This document shows, one piece after another, positions 53,697-60,218 of a stretch of DNA of 64,000 nucleotides (its first letter is position 1; each line of letters starts with the position of its first letter). Both the position numbers and the translations under genes were made by a program. The DNA is from Rhizobium sp. Q54 (GTDB taxonomy: Bacteria; Pseudomonadota; Alphaproteobacteria; UBA2966; CAIVPW01), in contig CAMEYM010000008.1 in the NCBI GenBank assembly GCA_945947575.1, positions 1 to 64,000 on the forward strand, read 5' to 3'. Under the pieces are notes generated by a model, which ran no database searches, had not been told where the DNA came from, and saw nothing but the letters and a program-made list of their open reading frames with translations.

Positions 53697-54197
53697 TTAT
53701 GGGTTCAGCGGCAGGGGCGCGGCACCCGGGGCCATCGGCGCCATCGGCGTAACGTCCGGACCCGGAATCGGCGCCCGGTTGTTGACGATGTTCTGGATGA
53801 CCTTCTGGTCGCCATCCAGGCGGTAGGTCAGCGTGACGGTCTGACCCGGCGTCAGCGTGTCGCCGCCCGGCACGTTGGCGGCGAGCAGGAAGGTATCGCC
53901 GTTCTCCAGCGTCAGGGTGCGGCGCAGCGGGTCGTACTGATCGACGCGGCCGTTGGTGGTCTGCGTCATCGCGGCGAGCGCGTTAGGCGCGGCTGCCGGC
54001 GGCGTGATCGGCGTGGCCGGTACGCCCCTGTTGTCGCCGAGACCGGCGCCGCCACCCGGCATGGCCGGGGCGGGAACGATGGGGGACGGAGTCACTGCCG
54101 GCGGAACGACCGGAGCGGGCGCCATGCCGGCGTTCGGCAGGCCGCGATCGGCCGGCGCCGTCGGCACGAACACGCCGTTGTCGTCCGGCAGCAACGC
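53697..54197 (-). pseudogene. DUF1344-like protein, 5' end missing
   Basis: The frame ends at 53697 and has a Pro-rich linker (about residues 25-80) followed by a DUF1344-like domain (GRVDQYDPLRRTLTLENGDT, then GQTVTLTYRLDGDQKVI). Upstream of about 54197 the same frame enters the antisense of the AAA ATPase gene, just at its Walker A loop. No signal peptide or convincing start is present before that junction. The simplest reading is that the 5' part was deleted together with the 5' part of the ATPase. The domain itself looks functional. Confidence 0.6.
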
Positions 54198-56592
54198 GAC
54201 CCGGGCATCGGCAAGAGCCGCCTGGTTTCCGAATTCGACGCGCAGGTGAGCGCCGCGGGTCACATCGTCATCCGCACCTCTTGCTTCCCGCCGCACTTGT
54301 TCGTTCCCGTCCCGCCGGTGGCCGAAGCGATGCGCCAGGCGCTGGCGCTGCTCGGCGTGCGCACTCACGAGGACGTCGGCAGCGACAAAGGTCTCGTGCA
54401 GCTCACGCCTCTGCACCGCGCCGCGATCCGCGTCGTGCTCGGCGGCGATCCGGGGGACACCCAGTGGCAGGCCCTCGGTCCGACCGAGCGGCGCCATCTG
54501 ACGCTGTCGGCGTGCGTCGAAGTGTTCGAGCAGTTGGCGCGCGCGCCAGGCTCTGGTGCTCTTGTTCGAAGACATCCATTGGGCCGATTCGGATCTTTCG
54601 CGCCTCATTGACCTGTTGTCGGTGCGCGTACACCTCGGCCGTACGCTGGTAGTCATGACGCGCCGTCCGGGCGCCGAGTTCCAGGACACGCCGTGGCCCA
54701 GCACCACGGTTGTCGAAGTCGATCCGCTCAGCGCGGCCGAGGGCGCCGAGCTCGCCAAGGCGACGCTCGGCTCCGCAAGCCACCTCAGCGCGCTGCGCGA
54801 CCTGCTGGTCGACAAGACCGGCGGCAATCCCTTCTTCCTGCTCGAGTGCGTTGCATCGGTGCTCAACGCCGGTCCGCTCACCGAGCGCGCCAGCGCCGCC
54901 ACGGTGCAGAACTGGGTGCGCGAGTTCGCGGTGCCGCGCACTATCCAAAGTATTATCGCGGCGCGCATCGACCGGCTCGCGCCGGCCGACCAGGAACTGT
55001 TGAGCCGCGCTTCCGTGATCGGCCAGACCTTTGCACACCAGCTGCTGGCGCGCATCGTGCCCGAGCGCCGCGAACAACTGCTCGCCGCACTCAACCGCCT
55101 GTGCCAGCTCGGCTTCCTGCAGCGCACGCGCGTCGTCCCGCACCTCGAGTTCAGCTTCAAGCACGCGTTGATTCATGACGTTGCGTACGGCTCGCTGCCG
55201 AGGGCGCTGCGCAAGAACCTGCACAGCGAGATCGCCGCGAACCTGCGTGCGCGCAGCCTGCAGATTGCGAACCGCATGGCGCTGCTCGCGCAGCACTGCC
55301 TGCGCTCGGAGCTGTGGGGCCAGGCGTTCGTCTATGGTCTCGCCGCCGGCCGCGATGCCTTGCGCCGCTCCCAGTTCCGAGAGGCCGTTGGCCTTCTCGA
55401 GGACGCTTCGAGTGCGCTCAAGCGCTTCCCGCGCACGGCGCGCAATAGCAAGCGCACCGCGCACGTCTGCCTCGACCTCGCCGATGCGCTCTTCCCGTTG
55501 GGCCGCAAGCAGGACGCGGAGCAGCAGCTGATTTTGGCGCAGTCGGCGGCGCGCCGCTCGGGCGACACCCGCACGCTGACGCGCACCTGGTGCAGCCTGA
55601 TGCTGCATCACTGGGTCGCCGGCAATCTGGAGACCGCTCACCGCATCGGCGTGCGCGCGCTCAAGGCGGCGGACGCCGCACGCTTCGACGATCTGCGTCT
55701 GATCTGCCTCGGCCGTCTTGGTTACGTGGCACTGGAACGTGGTCGCGGCAAGAGTGCCCGCCAGTATCTCCAAGATGCGCTGGCACTATCCGTTTCGTTG
55801 CCCGGCCGCCGTCGCGACGGCTTCCTCGTGGTTTCGCCGGTCGCGCTACAAGGTCCGCTGTCCGTTGCGCTCGCCCAGTTGGGCCTCTATCGCGAGGCGG
55901 TCGAACTCGCCGACGCCGCACTGAGCGGCGCCGAGGAATCGGGACACCTGTTCAGCAAGGTGTTCGCGCTGTTTCACGCCGGCATGGTGTATCTGCACCA
56001 GGGCGATTTCCAGCGCAGCGCTGAAGTCCTGGGCCAGTCCCTGCGCCTGTGCCGCACGATCGGCTCGACACTGCTCGTGCGCCAGATCGTCAGCGCCATG
56101 GGGTATGCGCTCCTTCACATCGGCCGCGCTGAAGAGGGCTGCACCCTCCTCGAGGACGCCGTCGCCTCCGCGACGCCGGATCCGATGGTCGGGCAGCTGC
56201 CGCAGCATCTCGGCTGGTTGGCCATGGCCAAGCTCGCCCTGGGTAACCACGGCGAGGCCGAGGTCGTCGCACGGCGCGCCATAACGCTGGCACGGCGCAA
56301 CGGCCAGCGTGGCTACGAAGCTTGGGGATGGTATGCGCTCAGCCGCGCCCAGCACGCCCTCGACGTTAGAACTGCCGCCCGCTCCATGGAACGGGCTCGC
56401 ACCATCGCCGTTGGTTGTGGCCTCACGCCCCTGGCAGCCCGAACCGAAGGCGGTTGGGGGGCATCGGAATCCGCCCTCGCCGTGGAAGTGACGGCGACGC
56501 CTACCTCGCCCCGCTCGCGCAATCATCTGCGCGTAGTGCGGAGCGACAATCAGGGCGCAGCGCGCCCTAAGCGTACGGTAGCGCTTACTTAG
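54198..56592 (+). pseudogene. AAA ATPase with TPR region, 5'-truncated and frameshifted
   Basis: The sequence begins in the P-loop: D-P-G-I-G-K-S-R-L-V at 54198-54227 lacks the first Gly of Walker A and everything before it. The frame then runs through CFPPHLFVPVPPVAEAM to about 54540, where a 1-base slip in a GCGCGCGCGC tract moves to the next frame. Walker B follows (LVLLFEDIHWADSD). The rest (about 680 codons) has LVDKTGGNPFFLLECV and a TPR-like helical C-terminus. This is the C-terminal part of a cyclase- or LuxR/MalT-like ATPase regulator. It lies upstream of the RiPP operon, but a regulatory link is not shown. Confidence 0.65.
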
Positions 56593-56818
56593 GCTCCGCG
56601 GGCTTCTCGCCCAGCGCGTCCAAGCACGCCTCGGCTGCCGCTCCGATCAGGAGCGCCGCAAGCTCAGCCCTGTGGCCCGTTGCTTCTGCCCGCAACTGGT
56701 CCAGGCACGCCTTGATGCTGTTGAGGGCTTGTTCCCTGCGGCCGTGAGCCTGACCCGCCGGCATCGCCGTTGGGCGGTCTGACGGGACAATCCTCGCGGC
56801 AGCACTCGTACTCTTCAT
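56585..56818 (-). CDS. Small helical protein divergent from the RiPP operon
   Basis: This 77-residue protein starts with GGAGAA before the ATG at 56818. It has a Ser/Pro-rich N-terminus and a long helical part, RREQALNSIKACLDQLRAE then LAALLIGAAAEACLDALGE. It has two Cys residues and a basic-acidic pattern. No family was recognised. It is divergent from the precursor gene with 189 bp between the starts, so it shares the region of the CRP sites. It could belong to the RiPP locus or be unrelated. Confidence 0.6.
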   Translation of the reverse strand: MKSTSAAARIVPSDRPTAMPAGQAHGRREQALNSIKACLDQLRAEATGHRAELAALLIGAAAEACLDALGEKPAEPK

Positions 56819-56894
56819 AACGGTTCTCCAAGTATTTGGGCGCCCAACTGCGGCGGCCATCCTGCAGCGATACTGCGACTTGGCGAATCCGTTC

Positions 56895-56942
56895 TGTGAG
56901 CCACTTCACAGGGCGCTTCACCTCTGGGTGAAGCAATTCACA
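56895..56942. promoter_or_regulatory. Two CRP-type operator palindromes upstream of the RiPP precursor
   Basis: Site 1 is TGTGA-N6-TCACA (56895-56910), a perfect match to the CRP consensus. Site 2 is GGTGA-N6-TCACA (56927-56942), with one mismatch. Their centres are 32 bp apart, about three helical turns, so both lie on one face. A further inverted repeat GCTTCACC/GGTGAAGC joins them (56915-56934). The Crp/Fnr protein at 59523 keeps the Arg-Glu residues that read TGTGA, so it is the likely regulator. Distance from site 2 to the precursor start is 66 bases. Confidence 0.8.
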
Positions 56943-57007
56943 GAGCTTTAGCACCCGTCCCGGTAAGTACTCTGGGTCGGGTCAGCAACTCTTAGGAGAA
57001 ACCAAAG

Positions 57008-57412
57008 ATGACGACGGAGGTACGCGGAACCCTGGTACGGGGTCCAGACGGATTGCTTTATGCGGTCGGCGGGGGTGTCGCGACCGTTGTTGATTCTTCG
57101 AACAGCGCACCGGTTGCACCGCGGGCCGCCGCAGCGGCCGCTGAAGATCACGACGCGGGCCGCTACATGATCACTCCGGGTGACCATGACGCCGGCCGCT
57201 ACATGATCACGCCGAGCAACGCGTCGAGCGAGCATGACGCCGGGCGCTACATGATCACTCCGGGCGACAACGAAGCCGGCCGCTACATGATCACGCCGAG
57301 CAACGCTGCCGCGCAGGATCACGACGCCGGCCGCTACATGGTGACTCCCGGTGAGGAGAGCGACCATGGCGCGGGCCGCTACATGATCTCTCCTGAAGTC
57401 AGCAACGCTTAG
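57008..57412 (+). CDS. RiPP precursor with six AGRYM-type repeats
   Basis: This 134-residue protein has a short N-terminal part (residues 1-45, ending in an Ala run) and then six near-identical units [D/E/G]AGRYM[I/V][T/S]P at residues 49-57, 61-69, 77-85, 89-97, 106-114 and 121-129. Acidic or small spacers such as GDH, SNASSEH and SNAAAQDH lie between them. Repeats of one core in one precursor are known for RiPPs such as thiovarsolin. The next genes encode a YcaO-TfuA pair, so the units are the likely core peptides and the N-terminal part the leader. AGGAG lies before the ATG. No homologue is recalled; the product is unknown. Confidence 0.85.
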   Translation: MTTEVRGTLVRGPDGLLYAVGGGVATVVDSSNSAPVAPRAAAAAAEDHDAGRYMITPGDHDAGRYMITPSNASSEHDAGRYMITPGDNEAGRYMITPSNAAAQDHDAGRYMVTPGEESDHGAGRYMISPEVSNA

Positions 57413-57418
57413 TTCCAA

Positions 57419-57454
57419 GGACCGCCCGGCGGCCGGACCGTCGGGCGGTCCTTT
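57419..57454 (+). terminator. Partial terminator between precursor and YcaO
   Basis: GGACCGCCCG (57419-57428) and CGGGCGGTCC (57442-57451) form a 10-bp stem with a 13-base loop, followed by TTT. It lies 7 bases after the precursor stop. With the same-strand YcaO gene 44 bases further on, it should allow partial read-through, giving more precursor than enzyme, a common RiPP design. Confidence 0.75.
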
Positions 57455-57497
57455 GCTCGCCTAGTTCCAACGAGTGCCAAGACCAAGGGAGCTCCCC

Positions 57498-58766
57498 ATG
57501 CTCAGCCAGCTCGAGACCACCGCCCTCGCCGCCGCGCGCAAGGCCTACCACTCCGGCACGCACCGTACGGTCGCGCCCGAGGAAACGCTGAAGCGCATCA
57601 CGCCGCTGCTGCCCGCCATGGGCATCACGCGCGTGGCCAACGTCACGGGACTCGACCGGGTCGGCATTCCCGTCGTCATGGTGACGCGCCCGAACTCGCG
57701 TTCGGTCTCGGTCAGCCAGGGCAAGGGCACGACCCTCACCGCCGCCAAGGTGTCCGGCGTCATGGAGGCGATCGAGGGCTACCACGCCGAGCGCATCACC
57801 CTGCCCCTCAAGCTCGCGAGCTTCGAGGAGCTGCGCTACACGCACCAGATGGTCAACGTCTACGCGCTGCCGCGCAATGGCCGCAGCACCTTCACGCCGC
57901 ACGCGCCGCTCTTGTGGACCGAGGGCAAGAGCCTGGTCTCCGGCCAGCCGGTGTGGGTGCCGTTCGAGATGGTGCACCTGAACTACACCTCGCCGATGCC
58001 GTCGGGCACCGGCTGCTTCCTGGCCAGCTCGAACGGTCTGTCGTCCGGCAACACCCTCGACGAAGCGATCAGCCACGGCATTTCCGAATTGGTCGAGCGC
58101 GACGCGGCGACGCTGTGGCATCGTCTCGACGCCGAGGCACGCGCACGCACGCGCATCGACCTTGCCACCATCCAGGACGGCTGGTGCTGCGACCTGATCA
58201 AGCGCTTCGACGCCGCCGGCATCGACGTCGGCATTTGGGACATCACCTCCGATATCGGCCTGCCGGCATTCCTGTGCCGCGCCGTGCCGCGCGACGCCAC
58301 CGTGCATGGCTTCCGCCCGGCCGTCGGCATGGGCTGCCACCCGGCGCCCGAGATCGCGCTGTCGCGCTCCCTCACCGAGGCGGCACAGAGCCGGCTCACC
58401 TTCATCTCCGGCGCGCGCGATGACATGCCGCGTCACGAGTACGAGCACTTCCTCGACGCCAACGTGCACAAGCGTTGGCAGGCGATGCTGCACGGCGAGA
58501 CGCCGCAGAAGCGCTTCGCCGACGTCGCCACCTTCGCGACCGATTCGATCACCAGCGACATCCAGCGCGAGGTTGCGCGCGTGATGGAATGCGGTGGCGA
58601 GGACGTCATCGTCGTCAACCTCACCAAGCCCGAGTTCAACATCCCGGTCGTGCGCGTCATCATCCCCGGTCTTGAGGGCGTCGATGCGTCGTCCGACTAC
58701 GTGCCCGGCAGACGTGCCGCAGCCCAGGATGCCGAGCGGCCGCGCGTCGCCGCGAGGGCGGCATGA
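57498..58766 (+). CDS. YcaO-domain peptide-modifying enzyme
   Basis: This 422-residue protein is a YcaO ATP-dependent enzyme that activates backbone amides. ATP/Mg-binding motifs are VSQGKG (about residues 72-77), E90-x-x-E93 (MEAIEGYHAE), the SSNGLSSGNTLDEAISHGIS block with E197 and E200 in SELVERD, and E294-A-A-Q-S-R. The C-terminus lacks the Pro-rich tail of azoline-forming YcaOs, which fits the TfuA-linked, thioamide-forming type (compare McrA thioglycine formation and thiovarsolin). GGGAG precedes the ATG. It overlaps tfuA (ATGA). Thioamidation is inferred. Confidence 0.88.
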   Translation: MLSQLETTALAAARKAYHSGTHRTVAPEETLKRITPLLPAMGITRVANVTGLDRVGIPVVMVTRPNSRSVSVSQGKGTTLTAAKVSGVMEAIEGYHAERITLPLKLASFEELRYTHQMVNVYALPRNGRSTFTPHAPLLWTEGKSLVSGQPVWVPFEMVHLNYTSPMPSGTGCFLASSNGLSSGNTLDEAISHGISELVERDAATLWHRLDAEARARTRIDLATIQDGWCCDLIKRFDAAGIDVGIWDITSDIGLPAFLCRAVPRDATVHGFRPAVGMGCHPAPEIALSRSLTEAAQSRLTFISGARDDMPRHEYEHFLDANVHKRWQAMLHGETPQKRFADVATFATDSITSDIQREVARVMECGGEDVIVVNLTKPEFNIPVVRVIIPGLEGVDASSDYVPGRRAAAQDAERPRVAARAA

Positions 58767-59515
58767 CCGCTTTCGTCTTCTGCGGGCCGAGCCTCACCGC
58801 CGAGCAGGGGCGGCCGCATCTCGACGCCATCTACCTGCCGCCGGTGGCCCAAGGCGACGTGATCCGCGTCATCGCGCGCAAGCCGACGGCGATCGGCATC
58901 ATCGACGGCTTCTTCCACAACGTGCCGGCGGTTTGGCACAAGGAAGTTCTCGCGGCGCTGCAGCAAGGCATCCCGGTGTGGGGCAGCGCCAGCATGGGCG
59001 CCCTGCGCGCCGCCGAGTTGCACCCGTTCGGCATGGTCGGTGTCGGCGCGGTGTTCGAGGCGTACCGCGACGGCATCATCGAGGATGACGACGAGGTCGC
59101 CGTCACCCACGGGCCCGGCGAGCTCGGCTACCTGGCGCTATCGGAAGCGATGGTCAACATCCGCTGCACCATGGCGGACGCACAACAACAGGGCGTTCTC
59201 TCCGAGCGCAGCCGCATCGTGCTCGAACGCGCCGCCAAGGCATTGCCCTACCAGGAGCGCACGTACGATCGCATCCTGAAGGCCGCTGCCGCCGCGGGCC
59301 TCGATCGCCGCGACGTCGAGGTCACGCGCGCGTGGCTTCCGTCCGGCCGCCGCGACCTCAAGCGCGAGGACGCTGTCCGCATGCTGCAAGTCATGCGTGA
59401 GCGCCTGGTTGCAGGCGCGCCGCGCGCAACTCCGAAGTTCCACTTCGAAGAAACGACGCTGTGGTTGAGTGCGGTAAAGGGTACCCTGGAAGGCACCAGA
59501 GCACCGCGGACATAA
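58763..59515 (+). CDS. TfuA-domain partner protein
   Basis: This 250-residue protein is a TfuA homologue. Its marks are FVFCGPSLTAEQG, IGIIDGFFHNVPAVWHKEV, the GSASMGALRAAELHPFGMVG block and AVFEAYRDGIIEDDDEVAV. TfuA was named from trifolitoxin genes and works beside YcaO, where it is thought to deliver sulfide and help thioamide formation. The start overlaps the YcaO stop, so the two are translationally coupled. It is complete. Confidence 0.88.
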   Translation: MTAFVFCGPSLTAEQGRPHLDAIYLPPVAQGDVIRVIARKPTAIGIIDGFFHNVPAVWHKEVLAALQQGIPVWGSASMGALRAAELHPFGMVGVGAVFEAYRDGIIEDDDEVAVTHGPGELGYLALSEAMVNIRCTMADAQQQGVLSERSRIVLERAAKALPYQERTYDRILKAAAAAGLDRRDVEVTRAWLPSGRRDLKREDAVRMLQVMRERLVAGAPRATPKFHFEETTLWLSAVKGTLEGTRAPRT

Positions 59516-59522
59516 CGGACGA

Positions 59523-60218
59523 ATGCCAGCCGCAGAAGATCTGCGGAGCGTCATCACCAAGAATGTGATCTTCGGGGCGTTAGGTTCCGGGGAGGTCGAT
59601 CGGCTCCTCGCCGCCGCCACGCTCCGCGCATACGAGAAAGATCAGCAGATCTTCCAACAGGGAGATTTGGCGGACGGTCTGTATCTCGTCGCCACAGGCC
59701 GCGTCGGTATCCGCACGCTGTCCGAGGAGGGCAGCGAGATCTTCCTCAACATTCTCGAAGGCGGCGCCGTGTTCGGCGAGATCGCCGCGATCGACGGCGG
59801 CGCGCGCACGGCAGGCGCGATCGCGATGGAGCGCTCCGACCTCCTGTTCGTCGACCGCCGCACATTTCACGGCTTGATGCTGGCGAGCCCGGCCCTGTGC
59901 GTCAGCCTGCTCACGCTCATGTGCGAGCGCTTGCGCTGGACCAGCTCGATCATCGAGGACGCGCACTTCCGCGACGTCAGGACGCGCCTCGCGCGGCGCC
60001 TGCACAAGCTGCTCGGCGAGTACGGCGTCGAGCAGGAAGGCGGCATGCGCATCAAACTGAAGGTGACGCAGGAAATGCTCGCGCGGATGCTCGGTGCGAC
60101 GCGCGAGAGCGTCAACAAGGAACTCATGGCGCTGCAGCGCGCCGGCATCCTCACCTACAGTCGCGGCTACGTCACCGTGCACGACGGCGAAGGATTGCGG
60201 CGTACTACCGAGGAGTAG
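59523..60218 (+). CDS. Crp/Fnr-family transcription regulator
   Basis: This 231-residue protein has an N-terminal cyclic-nucleotide-binding domain (IFQQGDLADGLYLVATGRVGI, then GAVFGEIAAIDGGARTAGAIA with the Glu and Arg that bind phosphate) and a C-terminal winged helix (VTQEMLARMLGATRESVNKELMAL). The R-E-x-x-x-K recognition order resembles CRP, which reads TGTGA. It is the last gene of the precursor-YcaO-TfuA operon (7 bases after tfuA), and CRP-type sites lie before the precursor. Autoregulation by this protein is inferred. No iron-sulfur Cys set of Fnr is seen. Confidence 0.9.
   Translation: MPAAEDLRSVITKNVIFGALGSGEVDRLLAAATLRAYEKDQQIFQQGDLADGLYLVATGRVGIRTLSEEGSEIFLNILEGGAVFGEIAAIDGGARTAGAIAMERSDLLFVDRRTFHGLMLASPALCVSLLTLMCERLRWTSSIIEDAHFRDVRTRLARRLHKLLGEYGVEQEGGMRIKLKVTQEMLARMLGATRESVNKELMALQRAGILTYSRGYVTVHDGEGLRRTTEE

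Follow-up and report, generated by a model that had tools for sequence, protein, structure and literature searches.

A six-core precursor gene adjoining YcaO and TfuA genes in an alphaproteobacterium: a putative thioamidated-peptide cassette with single-core relatives in Azospirillum

The locus described here lies in a 64,000-nucleotide stretch of Rhizobium sp. Q54 (assembly GCA_945947575.1, contig CAMEYM010000008.1, positions 1 to 64,000), referred to below as the window. A short gene encoding a repeat-bearing precursor is followed on the same strand by genes for YcaO, TfuA and a regulator of the CRP/FNR family, and is preceded by two predicted operators, a small antisense ORF and the remnant of a larger regulator (Table 1). 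Housekeeping genes follow beyond the CRP gene. This YcaO is the only copy in the genome. No protease, transporter or RRE-type gene was found within the cassette, and maturation must therefore rest on host enzymes.

Table 1. Features of the cassette and its surroundings (window coordinates)
Feature	Position	Strand	Remarks
Remnant of class III cyclase-AAA-TPR regulator	54180..56592	+	cyclase part missing; frameshift near 54540-54566
Small antisense ORF	56585..56860	-	conserved in G001 (74%), partly in G007
Predicted CRP-type operator TGTGAGCCACTTCACA	56895..56910	.	centre 105 bases upstream of precursor ATG
Second predicted operator GGTGAAGCAATTCACA, one mismatch	56927..56942	.	same arrangement in G001
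Precursor gene, 134 aa	57008..57412	+	ATG start; orthologs in G001 and G007
Leader, residues 1-45, with motif RGPDGLLYAVGGG	57008..57142	+	motif common to 55 distinct precursors; predicted strands
Core 1 AGRYMITP	57155..57178	+	
Core 2 AGRYMITP	57191..57214	+	
Core 3 AGRYMITP	57239..57262	+	
Core 4 AGRYMITP	57275..57298	+	
Core 5 AGRYMVTP	57326..57349	+	
Core 6 AGRYMISP	57371..57394	+	
16-bp RNA hairpin, precursor/ycaO gap	57417..57453	+	-37.8 kcal/mol, z -3.7
YcaO	57474..58766	+	PF02624 1.7e-87; likelier start is ATG at 57498, behind AAGGGAG
TfuA, 4-base overlap with ycaO	58763..59515	+	PF07812 1.4e-47; solved relative 6xp8, 3e-38
CRP/FNR-family regulator	59523..60218	+	PF00027 + PF13545; 3' of TfuA throughout clade loci examined

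The preliminary description of this DNA had reported six AGRYM[IV][TS]P units in the precursor ORF, a 45-residue leader ending in an Ala run, and YcaO and TfuA as the next genes. All of these are present, the two enzymes being recognised by their Pfam models (Table 1). The alternating core spacing, the operator and hairpin, the CRP gene and the truncated upstream regulator were not part of that description. The core units begin at residues 50, 62, 78, 90, 107 and 122, and none of the six deviates at A-G-R-Y-M or P. The array is also detected at the DNA level by TRF, including an 84-bp two-core super-unit. Since the six units exist in five distinct DNA versions, which differ mostly at synonymous sites (pS 0.32, pN 0.05), they are not recent DNA copies. 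The leader is predicted by AlphaFold2 (13 sequences) as three short strands at residues 8-27, with pLDDT 76-89 over residues 1-30, while the chain is predicted to be disordered from residue 42 on (repeats pLDDT 40-48); the overall confidence of the model is low (54). A leader that docks and cores that stay free would give such a picture.

Within the taxonomic family, precursor, YcaO and regulator occur together in three of eight genomes. In addition to the window genome these are G001, whose precursor carries seven AGRYYVTP cores, and G007 (CANKGV010000024, an uncultured alphaproteobacterium), with 20 AGRWA[IV][TS]P cores. The reading of the gene as a leader-plus-repeated-core precursor for YcaO/TfuA had been said to fail if the repeat protein occurred away from YcaO in relatives. 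No such separation was seen: the precursor adjoins the enzyme genes in 3/3 family genomes that have it, and both precursor and YcaO are absent from the other five, which supports that reading. The precursor thus lies beside ycaO and tfuA and is conserved with them, as expected for a RiPP precursor. A repeat-pattern scan of 85k species gave one locus among the matches listed, that of the G007 genome, and the multi-core form is apparently restricted to the present taxonomic family. Viral contigs with core-pattern matches were also considered; no relative was found among them.

Core spacing alternates between short and long in the window precursor (12-16-12-17-15 residues), in G001 (13-17 three times) and in G007 (a regular 11-15 throughout), which makes the two-core block the multiplying unit in each of the three multi-core genomes. 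The A, G, R and P of the core are unchanged in all 33 copies of the three genes, where silent sites show a pS of 0.37-0.64. Core positions 4-7 are uniform inside each genome (pN 0-0.11), and between the genomes they are as divergent as silent sites (pN/pS about 1.0-1.4). This uniformity, measured over few codons, can reflect either gene conversion that homogenises the copies or selection that favours a single peptide in each species.

The idea of a chance or low-complexity repeat protein without any tie to YcaO/TfuA has the weak Pfam matches of the ORF to repeat families in its favour. These matches, to MBG_2 and EspG, are themselves repeat artefacts, as no single stretch passes and they differ between orthologs. 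The largest set of similar 8-mers in the precursor has six members, against a maximum of two in 300 residue shuffles. Together with conservation in relatives, strict linkage to the enzyme genes and a leader shared with single-core relatives (below), this leaves the chance explanation a negligible probability; linkage and conservation refute it.

About 80 wider loci were gathered from TfuA matches in the class and in the family of genome G065, in which 62/82 genomes gave such matches. Close relatives sit in Azospirillum (named plasmid records), and their precursor, where annotated, is a 'hypothetical protein'. Beyond 1e-80, a phylum-wide YcaO search returned only 43%-identical loci. The order regulator - precursor - YcaO - TfuA - CRP is common to the loci of Azospirillaceae, and the leader motif of their precursors, RG[AP]DGxL[YF]xV, is that of the window precursor; its R, D, G and L never vary among the 55 distinct precursors. 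This combination of a conserved leader with a separate core is that of a RiPP precursor of a YcaO-TfuA pair. A supported clade of the YcaO+TfuA tree comprises 60 loci (3 multi-core, 41 single-core, 14 with other cores and 2 precursor-less), although these counts do not represent independent events since the Azospirillum loci are close kin. A precursor with the leader motif lies just upstream of the enzymes in 58 of the 60, and the three multi-core genomes form one branch (99). In two Azospirillum loci (L117, L118) the operator, YcaO, TfuA and CRP gene are kept and no precursor is recognisable.

Most Azospirillum precursors are about 65 aa long with a single C-terminal core such as DHEAGRFSITPGA, the usual form in Azospirillaceae being HE[AS][AGS]Rxx[IV]TPG. 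Elsewhere in Azospirillaceae the cores differ, for example SAEIF, SADLY or SAELH in one or two copies. The earlier statement that no family with this core was known is therefore partly wrong: a core that is widespread as a single copy in Azospirillum occurs here in multiplied form. In the literature searched, core strings occurred only as word fragments among the papers listed, and leader strings not at all. When one spurious linker match is left out, the Arg of the core is invariant in 41/41 single-core relatives and is preceded by Ala (24), Gly (15) or Ser (2), with Ile/Val, Thr, Pro and Gly on its C-terminal side. The Thr/Ser position is Ala in four of the 41. A more distant locus outside the 60-locus clade, L052, has five DDSQRHAANFIGT repeats.

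YcaO/TfuA-type enzymes normally exchange O for S in the peptide backbone. The solved structure nearest to the YcaO of the window is MJ1094 of a methanogen (2.9e-38), followed by TruD, LynD and MusD, and that nearest to TfuA is 6xp8. The NCBIfam equivalogs for thioamidation of McrA glycine (TIGR03266, NF033432) are the best models for the two enzymes, as MJ1094 and 6xp8 are the best structures; the scores are strong but fall under the curated cut-offs (270.4 vs 365 and 224.5 vs 235.2 bits). Moreover, the substrate of the McrA system in methanogens is a large enzyme, whereas here it would be a small leader peptide. The candidate ATP-binding motifs MEAIEGYHAE, EAISHGISELVERD and LTEAAQSR of YcaO are present and conserved; for TfuA-associated YcaO proteins, PMC8120280 describes a preference for Met, His and Ala in three ATP-binding motifs. 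More than a thousand YcaO+TfuA pairs were counted in Proteobacteria by the genome mining of TfuA-related BGCs presented there (PMC8120280); a term search of its main text gave no mention of Azospirillum or of repeated cores.

The closest known system, compared by its published description, is that of the thiovarsolins (VarA/VarY/VarT) of Streptomyces varsoviensis, in which YcaO and TfuA are needed, a thioamide joins Pro and Arg of APR, and host peptidases then trim the product (PMC6511847). Both systems have a leader with imperfect repeated cores, a YcaO and TfuA pair and no dedicated protease (PMC6511847), and in both one or more small residues precede an Arg in the core, APR/GPR there and AGR here. 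The thiovarsolin family spans precursors from a non-repeating form to five repeats (PMC6511847), and core number is likewise variable here. However, the hosts of thiovarsolins are Actinobacteria, the core triplet here is AGR, AAR or SGR and not APR/GPR, and the conserved C-terminal half of AGRYM[IV][TS]P and the CRP and cyclase genes are peculiar to the present loci. The tailoring genes varO, varL, varS and varP also lack counterparts: the neighbours are regulators and housekeeping genes, and the cassette has no gene for a VarO-like dehydrogenase, ATP-grasp ligase, amidinotransferase or MFS protein. In the std cluster, which makes an Asn thioamide, YcaO-TfuA likewise thioamidates a conserved C-terminal core motif, but the SNKEWQE core is unrelated and an MNIO and a carbamoyltransferase are involved (PMC13174530).

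Taken together, we consider it likely that the ORF encodes a multi-core RiPP precursor which undergoes backbone thioamidation by YcaO-TfuA and cleavage to short peptides under the control of a CRP-type regulator. The folded leader (about residues 7-28) would dock the chain on YcaO/TfuA; YcaO with ATP would activate one backbone amide in each AGRYM[IV][TS]P core, and TfuA would supply the sulphur, so that every core would receive one thioamide. Cleavage of the unstructured acidic linkers by host peptidases could then free as many as six short and almost identical peptides. The thiovarsolin precedent would make the Gly-Arg bond the likeliest site of the thioamide. An AG-thio-R product, a guess drawn in parallel with thiovarsolin, has slightly less than an even chance. 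The earlier suggestion of a thioamide at the Gly is weakened as a general rule: the Arg is constant, but Ala or Ser replaces Gly in most single-core relatives, so that the family at large can do without Gly. Nor does enzyme kinship fix the modified residue, as sister precursors carry different cores (SAEIF, SADLY, AANFIG). The thioamide of uL16, on Met82 after Arg81 (PMC13063428), was rejected as backing for the Gly-Arg site because it falls after the Arg and not before it. By analogy with uL16, a thioamide at the neighbouring bond, after the Arg, is possible.

It is conceivable, though rather improbable, that the repeat protein is modified by YcaO/TfuA and remains uncut, the whole thioamidated chain being the product, for instance a metal-binding or regulatory protein. 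Indeed, the cassette encodes neither protease nor exporter, the 20 cores of G007 at regular 11/15 spacing recall a repeat protein, and uL16 and McrA are thioamidated and kept whole (PMC13063428, PMC7058361). However, the thiovarsolin precursor is cut although its cluster also has no dedicated protease (PMC6511847), and the single-core relatives, which are just some 65 residues long and end in the core, indicate that no array is needed. A different core modification for which TfuA would be a helper, for instance an amidine or an azoline at Thr/Ser, is less probable still. YcaO enzymes do also produce azolines and amidines, and a Thr/Ser is conserved in the [IV][TS]P that closes each core, but characterised TfuA partners are tied to thioamides (PMC6511847, PMC13174530), the SagD-type azoline model scores 152.7 bits on YcaO compared with 270.4 for the thioamidation model, and the Thr/Ser is dispensed with in the Ala-bearing relatives mentioned above.

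An exact copy of the palindrome TGTGA-N6-TCACA stands no more than 400 bases 5' of the precursor in 49/61 loci, and one with up to one mismatch in 57/61; no exact copy was found in the remaining 449 kb of locus sequence, and four sites were counted over the 2.5 Mb of the genome. Of the four loci without such a site, two (L061, L063) are of a distant type without CRP gene or operator, whose YcaO-TfuA precursors have a longer leader and end in two or three GGKQRFA repeats. With one mismatch allowed, the operator in the window alone is not significant (mean 0.8 expected), and the case for it therefore rests on comparison across loci. A scan of 56580-57520 revealed neither sigma-70 promoter nor T-run terminator patterns. 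The stable hairpin after the precursor stop (Table 1) is likely a partial terminator or mRNA stabiliser, and a comparable one lies 3' of the precursor in most relatives tested. Hairpins in this position are common where a cell produces more precursor than enzyme.

In G001 the upstream regulator is an intact protein of 1054 aa with a class III nucleotide cyclase, an AAA ATPase and TPRs. The window lacks residues 1-249 of this regulator, and residues 250-378 are set apart from the remainder by a frameshift; NCBIfam relates the remnant in the window, under the cut-off, to the TOMM kinase/cyclase fusion protein. No ortholog of the missing cyclase domain was found elsewhere in the genome, the other cyclases being only 26-39% identical. 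The truncation may represent real decay or misassembly. Within the affected region, 53697-54600, an unrelated minus-strand ORF stands in place of the cyclase domain. In Azospirillum a ribbon-helix-helix gene fills the place of the small antisense ORF, which has no RHH match in the window. The operator upstream of the precursor and the flanking cyclase/AAA/TPR and CRP genes suggest control by a cyclic nucleotide. This arrangement leads us to propose that the operon is under the control of the CRP-family protein, fed by the cyclase: the CRP-family protein would bind TGTGA-N6-TCACA upstream of the precursor (proposed target TGTGAAGTTCTTCACA) together with a cyclic nucleotide whose original source would be the neighbouring cyclase-AAA-TPR protein.

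A bolder and rather doubtful proposal is that of a self-contained thioamide system of Alphaproteobacteria, switched by a cyclic nucleotide, whose species-specific peptide would act like a signal or pheromone and whose output would be raised by core number, from 1 to 20. It draws on the fixed A-G-R and P and on middle positions (YM, YY, WA) that differ by species. Repeat-bearing YcaO-TfuA precursors being already known, the cassette is not a new kind of system. New in this analysis are the CRP-type palindrome, the hairpin after the precursor and the flanking class III cyclase/AAA/TPR and CRP genes. Neither the leader motif and core nor the 1-to-20 core multiplication and the CRP/cyclase circuit were found in the literature searched, subscription papers lying outside its scope. 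Few YcaO-TfuA peptide classes are characterised (four are listed, and one is added in PMC13174530), and the present family would be a further one that has a named leader motif. For clusters of this sort the timing of peptide production is seldom known; here the linked cyclase, CRP gene and operator predict it. Since the simple four-gene cassette occurs in Azospirillum that can be cultured and manipulated genetically (A. lipoferum 4B, Azospirillum sp. B510, A. brasilense), product and function are directly testable.

Other precursor types accompany YcaO-TfuA genes. A second Azospirillum locus, represented by L156 (oriented ORF 1520-2683) and L066, has more than 12 IFAGQPA or IAAGQxxGG repeats and is a multi-core candidate; the start of the L066 precursor is weakly Nif11-like (E 0.006, under the cut-off), and L156 gives no such match. 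Four further loci (L053, L054, L055, L152) have non-repeating precursors of about 75 aa (HGIxIxWGxxxYxVPxExWQ...GEGIGSACYLIDL) before YcaO-TfuA and form another conserved family.
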